Assembly: GCA_017472925.1 (NCBI GenBank)
Contig: JAFUNS010000027.1
Span: 1-54,315, forward strand
Origin: Bacteroides sp.
GTDB taxonomy: Bacteria > Bacteroidota > Bacteroidia > Bacteroidales > Bacteroidaceae
Length of the DNA stretch: 54,315 bases
Direction of reading: 5' to 3'
The notes under the pieces were generated by a model, which was given only the letters and a program-made list of their open reading frames with translations, was not told the DNA's origin and made no database searches. Made by a program: the position numbers and the translations under genes. Shown here one piece after another: positions 24,371-47,556 of the stretch (position 1 is its first letter; every line of letters starts with the position of its first letter).

Positions 24371-24402
24371 TTTTAGGCACGGATTACACGGATTTCACGG
24401 AT
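24371..24402 (+). repeat. CACGGATTN inverted repeat, left arm
   Basis: TTTTAGG plus three CACGGATT units with 9-bp period. Perfect inverted partner at 24796-24827. Confidence 0.9.
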
Positions 24403-24403
24403 T

Positions 24404-24769
24404 TTAGTATGTGAAAATCTTACGTTTCATTTCAGCTGATAATCCAAAGTTTAAAAGTAATCCCACTCTCAAGCCTGTTCCTTTTAAATAATTAATTAAC
24501 TGCCATTCGTGCTCGGGACGAAGTTTGGATACAGCTTTTAATTCTAAAATTACTTTATCTTCTACTATGATATCCGGTTTGTACGTACCAACTATTTCAT
24601 TTTTATAATATACATTTAATTCCTTCTGACACTCACACTTCAGTCCTCTACGAATTAATTCTTTAAACATGGCATTTTGGTATACTTGTTCTAAGAAACC
24701 AAATCCTAATATTTTATGAACTTCATAAAATGCATTTATTATTTCTTTTGTTAGTTCTTCGTGTATCAT
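24404..24769 (-). CDS. GxxExxY-family protein, PD-(D/E)XK nuclease fold
   Basis: 121 aa from ATG 24769; a longer frame reaches into the repeat but its first 23 codons merely translate the repeat. The signature G-F-L-E-Q-V-Y (24-30) matches the family's GxxExxY. K-P-D-I-I-V-E-D-K-V-I-L-E-L-K (64-78) gives a PD-(D/E)XK set: D66, E76, K78. The family is small, widespread and of unknown role, often in several copies per genome. The catalytic residues are all present, so an active metal-dependent nuclease is plausible. The gene is alone inside the repeat-bounded unit. Confidence 0.88.
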   Translation of the reverse strand: MIHEELTKEIINAFYEVHKILGFGFLEQVYQNAMFKELIRRGLKCECQKELNVYYKNEIVGTYKPDIIVEDKVILELKAVSKLRPEHEWQLINYLKGTGLRVGLLLNFGLSAEMKRKIFTY

Positions 24770-24795
24770 AAATTCTTTGTTCGTGTGTTTAATTA

Positions 24796-24827
24796 ATCCG
24801 TGAAATCCGTGTAATCCGTGCCTAAAA
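24796..24827 (-). repeat. CACGGATTN inverted repeat, right arm
   Basis: Exact reverse complement of 24371-24402. It touches the stop codon of rfbD (24828-24830). Confidence 0.9.
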
Positions 24828-25706: not shown

Positions 25707-25827
25707 TTTAGGCACGGATTTCACGGATTTCACGGTTTTCGCTTTATATTTCCGTGTCATCTACATAAGCCAAAGGCTTAAAACCAAAGGACGGGTTCCG
25801 TGTAATCCGCGTAATCCGTGCCTAAAA
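25707..25827. repeat. Coding-free inverted pair of the CACGGATTN repeat
   Basis: Arms at 25707-25735 and 25798-25827 carry the same TTTAGGCACGGATT-type units as the GxxExxY element, with a few mismatches (CACGGTTTT, CGCGGATT). The 62-bp interior holds a small hairpin TAAGCC-AAA-GGCTTA and no gene. The unit fills the gap between DUF4924 and rfbD. It looks like a non-autonomous, decayed derivative. Confidence 0.75.
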
Positions 25828-47434: not shown

Positions 47435-47526
47435 TTTTAGGCACGGATTACACGGATTGCACGGATATATTTGATGGACACATACACTAAAAAACCGTGT
47501 TAATCCGTGTAATCCGTGCCAAAAAA
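47435..47526. repeat. Short coding-free inverted pair of the CACGGATTN repeat
   Basis: Arms at 47435-47466 and 47495-47526 share GGCACGGATTACACGGATT (19 bp) perfectly; loop 28 bp. Same family as the GxxExxY element arms. It lies between the MATE start and the terminator of the lipoprotein gene, at the edge of the GC-rich segment. Confidence 0.8.
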
Positions 47527-47556
47527 ATAAGTGGATGCGTATTTTGACACATCCAC
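47521..47556 (-). terminator. Rho-independent terminator of the duplicated lipoprotein gene
   Basis: 10-bp stem GTGGATGCGT / ACACATCCAC (one mismatch, 47531-47556) with T-tract on the minus strand. Nearly the same hairpin as the prfC terminator at 22754. 13 bp below the stop. Confidence 0.8.

Follow-up and report, generated by a model that had tools for sequence, protein, structure and literature searches.

The element and its arms

The stretch of DNA analysed here (the window; 54,315 nucleotides of a Bacteroides sp. genome, contig JAFUNS010000027.1) carries a small GxxExxY gene enclosed by two inverted arms, together with two gene-free elements. The features are the following:

24371..24827, no strand assigned: gene-bearing element of 457 bp, consisting of the two inverted arms and the GxxExxY gene
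24371..24403, plus strand: left arm, 33 bp, TTTTAGG followed by CACGGATTA CACGGATTT CACGGATT
24404..24769, minus strand: GxxExxY gene, 121 amino acids from the Met at 24769, in a frame that is open to 24838
24795..24827, minus strand: right arm, exact reverse complement of the left arm
25707..25826, no strand assigned: gene-free element with imperfect inverted arms, about 120 bp
47435..47524, no strand assigned: gene-free element, a hairpin of about 90 bp, with a second hairpin, GTGGATGCGTATTTTGACACATCCAC, next to it at 47531

The exact inverted repeats described around the gene in an earlier, sequence-only reading were found to be real, each arm being made of CACGGATTN units; the exactness of the repeat was confirmed, and the arm length was corrected from 32 bp to 33 bp. 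The same reading had placed two gene-free pairs of the same repeat at 25707 and 47435. Both pairs exist, and both are imperfect rather than intact copies. They were found to fold into hairpins far better than shuffled sequences, with z values of −6.8 (25707-25826) and −9.0 (47435-47524), respectively. For CACGGATT, 1.94 copies would be expected in the window and 13 are present, a count that 0 of 100 shuffles reached. The 47435 element is intergenic when judged by start-to-stop frames, though it lies inside a long stop-to-stop frame.

The GxxExxY protein

The window protein matched TIGR04256 (E 3.5e-41, 140.2 bits, curated cut-off 35) and PF13366 (PDDEXK_3; E 1.5e-41, 141.9 bits, curated cut-off 22). 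With the Met at 24769 as residue 1, D66, E76 and K78 are intact, as had been read from the sequence, and are invariant in an alignment of 50 sequences composed of the window protein and 49 of the 80 relative loci described below; a Q and a Y, three residues apart and located after the E-x-K, are invariant as well. An AlphaFold2 model of the protein (mean pLDDT 93.5) has a predicted PD-(D/E)XK nuclease fold resembling those of Cas4 and lambda-type exonucleases. With this model, Foldseek returned SSO0001, which we take to be a Cas4 (E 5e-4), LHK-Exo (E 8e-4) and lambda exonuclease (E 6e-3); of all the matches, three have an E value of 0.001 or better; tRNA-splicing endonucleases, which act on RNA, were also among the matches, with E values of about 0.01. 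At the level of sequence, the Cas_Cas4 Pfam model scored 16.7 bits, under its 22.7-bit cut-off, the best match among the PADLOC models was to a Cas4 model (E 0.001, 17.4 bits), and a search of solved structures at E values up to 10 gave zero matches. The Pfam scan yielded PDDEXK_3 and weak Cas4/endonuclease matches and none to Y1_Tnp (HUH-Y1), and no known transposase (DDE, HUH, serine/tyrosine recombinase) was found when this sole enclosed gene was scanned against Pfam and NCBIfam. Membership of the window protein in the RAYT family was ruled out by its protein family and fold.

Copies of the repeat in the genome of the window

The genome to which the window belongs (G000; 2.81-Mb assembly, 79 contigs, 79.7% complete) contains 97 matches to CACGGATTNCACGGATT, the reversed control giving 0. 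In the stretches of G000 that were examined, with two mismatches allowed, the matches form 67 clusters, most of which span about 90 bp between their outer ends. PF13366 has a single match in this genome, and one of the 67 clusters holds the GxxExxY gene; the gene-free copies were shown to be short hairpins made of the same arms as the gene-bearing unit. Five loci (L007, L018, L037, L066 and L074) present an extra ACGTGTTGTTGAGCAAAGCGAAAAAATCCGTG-like module between two units, as if a smaller repeat were nested in the arm. Among the 63 elements with enough flank for their placement to be assessed, 26 were located in convergent, 28 in tandem and 3 in divergent gaps, 4 lie within a long stop-to-stop frame and 2 were left unjudged.

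A second hairpin (AGTGGATGYGYATTTCGACACATCCACT-like, with up to 6 mismatches) was found within 95 bp on one side of 26 of the 67 elements. This hairpin, which flanks many elements and occupies 47531-47556 in the window, is terminator-like. DNA matches between G000 and its congener G255 run about 135-150 bp, a length suggesting that the element and the second hairpin are copied together.

Three gene-free elements of G000, L041 (about 1398-1526), L067 (about 1500-1682) and L073, were found inserted in frame in a linker (RHGLHG...NPCNPCNPC) of three paralogous open frames, two of about 800 amino acids and the third cut by a contig end. The frames stay open because the nine-bp units equal three codons. 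The homologue in G255 (L379) has a different linker at the position of the insertion.

Arms around GxxExxY genes in other phyla

The flanks of 80 loci were evaluated for the presence of arms. These were the best 80 of 550 confirmed for the subfamily of the window protein, with one genome per species, and were picked by protein alone, the flanks being unused; according to the record titles, they span Bacteroidota, Ignavibacteria, Desulfobacteraceae, Chloroflexi, Planctomycetes, Methylococcaceae and others. A 44-bp arm model was cross-validated by training on one half and testing on the other, with a threshold score of 10. An inward arm scoring at least 10 was present in 67 of 79 left flanks and 66 of 77 right flanks; in the wrong orientation, 16 of 79 left and 20 of 77 right flanks reached this score. 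Control scans, run strand by strand on 250-bp windows located 1 kb or more away, reached it in 38 of 2,074. Both arms were present in 61 of 76 loci, 4 of the 80 having no long enough flank on one side, whereas 8 loci had one arm and 7 had none; the GxxExxY genes of this subfamily are thus generally flanked by repeats, in agreement with the earlier reading of gene and arms as one package. Several of the 15 loci below threshold present other units when inspected by eye, and L121 does not. Similarly, when the two flanks of a locus were aligned with each other, a score of 20 was reached in 59 of 76 loci in inverted orientation, against 26 of 76 in direct orientation and 41 of 200 for mispaired inverted flanks. 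Element length ranged from about 434 to 743 bp, with a median of 500 (65 loci).

Alignment of the 55 best arms gave the consensus NNAATAGAACACGGATNACACGGATTNAACNGATTTNCACNGAT. The best period of the flanks was 9 in 80 of 156 and 10 in 18, compared with an even spread in 114 control flanks, and the conserved arm columns C, G, A and T (40 loci) are 11 and 13-15, 20 and 22-24, and 29 and 31-33, followed by a less strict fourth core at columns 39 and 41-43. These C-N-GAT cores are spaced 9, 9 and 10 bp, an arm consisting of three or four C-N-G-A-T cores that lie 9-10 bp, or about one helical turn, apart. At the conserved positions, the same bases recur from locus to locus (0.89). In the variable column in the middle of each of the four cores, the left and right arms of an element matched at 0.62, 0.38, 0.50 and 0.40, compared with 0.40, 0.39, 0.37 and 0.28, respectively, between loci, and the two arms of one locus are 72% identical on average, compared with 56% between loci. 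The middle-column matches indicate that pairing or common origin leaves some trace, far from strict, and the base identity kept in the cores can be read as recognition of bases on one DNA face, with pairing secondary.

The simplest alternative is that AT-rich palindromes happened to lie between genes and beside a small gene. The unit strings are short, and mispaired flanks do align somewhat (the 41 of 200 at a score of 20), which they do because the motif is common to the loci; nevertheless, the cross-validated scores, the orientation rule, the control scans and the 0 matches of the reversed pattern against 97 all speak against chance, which is extremely improbable and was ruled out by the shuffles (0 of 100), the reversed pattern and the control scans.

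Correspondence between unit type and protein

Two unit types, AT (C[AG]CN[AG]AT) and AG (C[AG]CN[AG]AG), were counted in the flanks of 139 loci, of which 9 were dropped for having no protein by pattern. Proteins with GxGFLExVY (class A) were accompanied by AT units in 80 loci, AG units in 0 and neither in 8, whereas those with GPGLLES (class C) had AT units in 5, AG units in 23 and neither in 3; the comparison of the two classes (80:0 vs 5:23, p 5e-19) leaves aside 7 loci classed as 'other' and 4 of class B, and its loci include orthologs and are not all independent. By a looser count on a wider set, two or more inward units were present both left and right of the gene in 57 of 85 class A and 23 of 34 class C loci; when one side sufficed, the counts were 70 of 85 and 32 of 34, respectively, single control scans giving 150 of 2,430. 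For a GPGLLES-rich set, in which 24 of 30 loci had enough flank, an inverted flank score of at least 20 was found in 14 of 24 loci vs 14 of 72 mispaired ones and the arm model was found on both sides in 3 of 24, unit counts being clearer than flank alignment in this set. In genomes with different kinds of the gene (L341/L342 and L345/L346), each gene was seen by eye to have its own unit type. Protein distance and arm distance were correlated (Mantel r 0.56, n = 63, with 0 of 2,000 permutations as high), a correlation of which co-inheritance alone could yield part.

Multiple gene-bearing copies were also evaluated. One genome (G012) holds 12 family members, two of which, L328 and L329, encode proteins that are 95% identical; their DNA likeness starts at the outer end of the unit palindrome left of the gene, the DNA beyond it being different, and L328 has a further arm left of the shared palindrome, its right side running off the contig. 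Among extra gene copies, the gene was found in 15 of 20, with one pair above 75% identity and the others at 72% or less, and from these low identities gene-bearing copies seem to multiply rarely.

Distribution among 247 genomes of the order

PF13366 was found in 138 and the arm model in 129 of 247 genomes of the order, in a survey that scores about 25 arm candidates per genome and whose filters lose weak matches. Arms were present in 99 of 138 GxxExxY-positive vs 30 of 109 negative genomes (odds ratio 6.7, p 5e-12), at least 10 arms were found in 53 positive vs 8 negative genomes, and arm count followed the number of gene copies (Spearman 0.56). The repeats are therefore commoner where GxxExxY occurs, which is the relation that the sequence-only reading had anticipated. 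When each family was represented by one genome, p had a median of 2e-5 and reached 0.027 in the worst of 200 draws. In 17 of 28 mixed families, the genomes with the gene had the higher arm counts, against 4 families with lower and 7 with tied counts (p 0.007), and arm presence was up in 11, down in 5 and tied in 12, a difference that was not significant (p 0.21). For the window-type pattern, GxxExxY was present in 31 of 41 genomes with the pattern vs 107 of 206 without it (p 0.006).

At least 3 arms were held by 19 of the 109 GxxExxY-negative genomes. The 16 stretches read in negative genomes revealed six 86-bp hairpins in G112, 92-93-bp hairpins along with one wider pair and some single arms in G115, and single arms in G031. 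Gene-free units of 91-154 bp were found in the positive genomes G203, G037 and G156.

A protein of a different kind was found in a comparable setting. PF05635 (23S_rRNA_IVP), a four-helix bundle and no nuclease, is present in 187 of the 247 genomes. From 30 of its loci in the order (L246-L275), 28 were tested, and an inverted own-flank score of at least 20 was reached in 23 of 28 vs 6 of 84 mispaired ones, so that PF05635 genes also lie in inverted arms; the best period of their flanks was 7 in 27 of 52, 14 in 14 and 8 in 9. Their arm units include TTAGGCA, TTTTCAG and others. The occurrence of PF05635 in analogous arms means that packaging of this type does not need the GxxExxY nuclease; it may be a solution of general use, or both kinds of gene may be moved by a third party.

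The latter idea can be put more broadly: another enzyme, such as a RAYT/TnpA-REP, an IS200/IS605-like transposase or a reverse transcriptase, would move the repeats, and GxxExxY, like the PF05635 protein, would be a passenger or a guard. Besides the PF05635 loci, the persistence of repeats in GxxExxY-negative genomes agrees with this, as does the TnpA-REP subclass with atypical repeats reported for Bacteroidetes (PMC6006769). However, both the sequence of the arms and their unit type go with the GxxExxY subfamily, the presence of GxxExxY predicts arms, and the 28 PF05635 loci gave zero matches to the GxxExxY arm model; a different mover is considered unlikely.

Filled and empty sites within the genus

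The number of pattern hits was 135 in G000 and 107 in G255, the other 11 of 12 congeners having 0-4. Matches to PF13366 were found in G247 (2), G249 (2), G254 (2, plus one below cut-off), G253 (1), G256 (1) and G258 (one weak), with none in G248, G250, G251, G252, G255 and G257; G255 thus has 107 hits yet no gene was found in its assembly, which is 54% complete. All eight strong congener genes read sit in arms whose units differ, as judged by eye:

Unit CACAGATTT: L186, L187
Unit CGCAGATTT: L194
Unit CGCAGAGAC: L188, L192, L193
Unit CGCAAATGA: L189
Unit GAACAAAA: L190, then gene-free copies

Two insertion sites recur. L186, L187 and L194 lie between radA and a FAD-dependent gene, these names being taken from the annotation of a Bacteroides finegoldii record, and L188, L192 and L193 lie between the two methylmalonyl-CoA mutase genes (mutB and mutA), named from their sequence.

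Comparison of closely related genomes, which the sequence-only reading had proposed, does show empty sites at element positions. At the first window site (24371-24827), the element is absent in 11 of 12 congeners, the site not being located in the twelfth, G253. At the second (25707-25826), no arms were found in 10 of 11 congeners examined, a set that leaves out G251; the site was not located in G250. The mutB-mutA site is filled in G247, G249 and G254 and empty, with a gap of a few tens of bases, in G248, G250, G251, G252, G253, G256 and G257; it was not located in G258, the G000 contig breaks there and G255 gave no match. In G252, a plain terminator hairpin takes the place of one C5 element of G000, another G000 element (L025) is present at the same site in G255, and the 47435 element has a near-identical copy with its near flanks in G255 (L230), the farther flanks matching no examined G000 locus. 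At the sites read for target duplication, which were both window sites, mutB-mutA and one C5 site, the flanks have diverged too far to fix exact ends or a duplication.

The arms of the G249 mutB-mutA element match about 30 separate places in G247, besides the same element, which G247 also carries at mutB-mutA, 2 in G254 and zero in the other 10 genomes searched, and those of the window element match mainly G255, with few matches in G252, G248 and G256. These patterns indicate that the dispersed family tends to follow the resident gene; the exceptions are G255, G252 and G248, where no gene was found. In the comparison across loci, distal gene-free arms fell within the top 5% for likeness to the resident arms in 7 of 17 loci. 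Gene-free copies resemble the resident arms in some places, namely those 7 loci and G247, which favours the earlier idea of them as non-autonomous copies.

The placement of the elements bears on another reading, by which the arms act at the RNA level, as terminators, structures that protect mRNA ends or hairpins cut by RNase III in the manner of 23S rRNA intervening sequences, the protein binds its own transcript and the spread is slow and incidental. The scarcity of elements in divergent gaps (3 of 63, against 26 convergent and 28 tandem) suits such a role, as do the plain terminator hairpin at the empty G252 site, the strong folding of the elements, the RNA-cutting tRNA-splicing endonucleases among the fold matches (E about 0.01) and the fact that three of four variable middle columns match more between the arms of an element than between loci. 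On the other hand, the two arms of an element average only 72% identity while the core bases are kept, the 135 pattern hits of G000 vs 0-4 in 11 congeners need dispersal, and the best fold matches are DNA exonucleases and Cas4. This reading was judged improbable.

Phage, viral and plasmid records

A tblastn search (cut-off 1e-5) of 50,697 phage records gave no match to the window protein, and none of the 374 stretches of viral_contigs that match the peptide pattern encodes a relative; hence, the protein is not visibly phage-borne. In a plasmid collection, 8 of 72,556 records matched, and in the one opened, H7, the gene order looks chromosomal. Locus L326, from Bacteroides finegoldii 'plasmid 50' (NZ_OY725952.1), has its GxxExxY gene between radA and the FAD-dependent gene, as do three genomes of the window's genus, and looks chromosomal. 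Gene-free elements were found in 8 phage-collection records (H13-H20), 4 plasmid-collection records and 4 viral contigs (L388-L391). The phage-collection records include faecal phage scaffolds, and the four opened are marked unverified. Another hairpin gave no match in the plasmid collection, and for the two elements looked up there was no near-identical empty contig in viral_contigs.

Proposed mechanism and significance

The arms were shown to accompany the gene across phyla, the unit type to track the protein subfamily and the sites to be filled or empty within one genus. These features suggest, with moderate confidence, that the unit is a minimal mobile element, in which one small Cas4/RecB-like PD-(D/E)XK gene lies between two inward arms and the gene-free copies are mobilised in trans. 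The protein would bind to its cognate arm units, probably forming an oligomer along one face of the DNA. Once the palindrome is extruded or single-stranded, the protein may cut it at its outer ends or close to them; the hairpin, released or copied, could then enter new intergenic sites via replication or repair. The gene-free copies would be non-autonomous derivatives mobilised in trans, as REPINs are thought to be by RAYTs, and those left without a gene, as seems to be so in several genomes, may persist as relics or as terminators of the host. The comparison with RAYTs had already been drawn from the sequence. As an association between gene and repeats, it stands, since both the flanking of the gene and the counts over genomes favour it; that the protein is the disperser is what we infer.

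A wider proposal is put forward tentatively, with less than even confidence: GxxExxY proteins may be the catalytic part of an unrecognised, multi-phylum class of elements that reads helically phased C-N-GAT units and mobilises short palindromes, and PF05635 proteins may head another, convergent class whose units measure 7 bp. The GxxExxY family is widespread, with members in 138 of the 247 genomes sampled, and has hardly been studied, being named in 2 papers of the literature searched; its cognate repeats provide a testable role, a substrate and a subfamily-specific recognition code. The link might also account for a class of palindromes that lie dispersed in Bacteroidota and other phyla; beside the HUH enzymes, there would be a PD-(D/E)XK enzyme that disperses small repeats on its own. 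Searches by family name, unit string and related repeat class found no description of the linkage between GxxExxY and repeats in the literature covered, which excludes most subscription-journal papers and all bioRxiv preprints.

Comparison with known systems

Several known systems share features with these elements. Cas4, RecB and lambda exonuclease have the fold predicted for GxxExxY, its catalytic residues and the invariant Q and Y that follow the E-x-K, whereas GxxExxY has only 121 amino acids and is packaged in cognate repeats. Insertion sequences and their MITEs are similar in having one gene between terminal inverted repeats, gene-free miniatures and orthologous sites that are filled or empty, but the GxxExxY unit carries no known transposase family, its ends are internally repetitive and its full copies are rarely alike. 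The palindromic elements of Rickettsia are small palindromes, some of which lie in frame in protein-coding genes, as in L041, L067 and L073; they differ in sequence and host, and we know of no autonomous gene that has been linked to them. The intervening sequences of 23S rRNA contain a small S23 ORF (PF05635) in a stem of inverted arms, an arrangement that the PF05635 relatives of this order share and that GxxExxY elements resemble, although the protein family is unrelated and the units are of 7 bp rather than 9-10 bp.

REP systems consist of palindromic intergenic repeats that frame a low-copy gene and occur in more numerous gene-free copies, with the protein matched to its repeat. Likewise, the GxxExxY gene is mostly low-copy and framed by its own repeats, the gene-free copies outnumber it and the protein type matches the repeat. 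The differences lie in the enzyme, which by profile and fold is a PD-(D/E)XK nuclease with no HUH-Y1 match, in the arms, which are 33-44 bp long and composed of three or four units of 9-10 bp, and in the core, which is C-N-GAT or C-N-RAG rather than a GTAG-tagged REP. In their behaviour, the elements described here therefore resemble the REPIN-RAYT systems more closely than any other known kind, with a nuclease of a different fold in place of the enzyme that defines the RAYTs.
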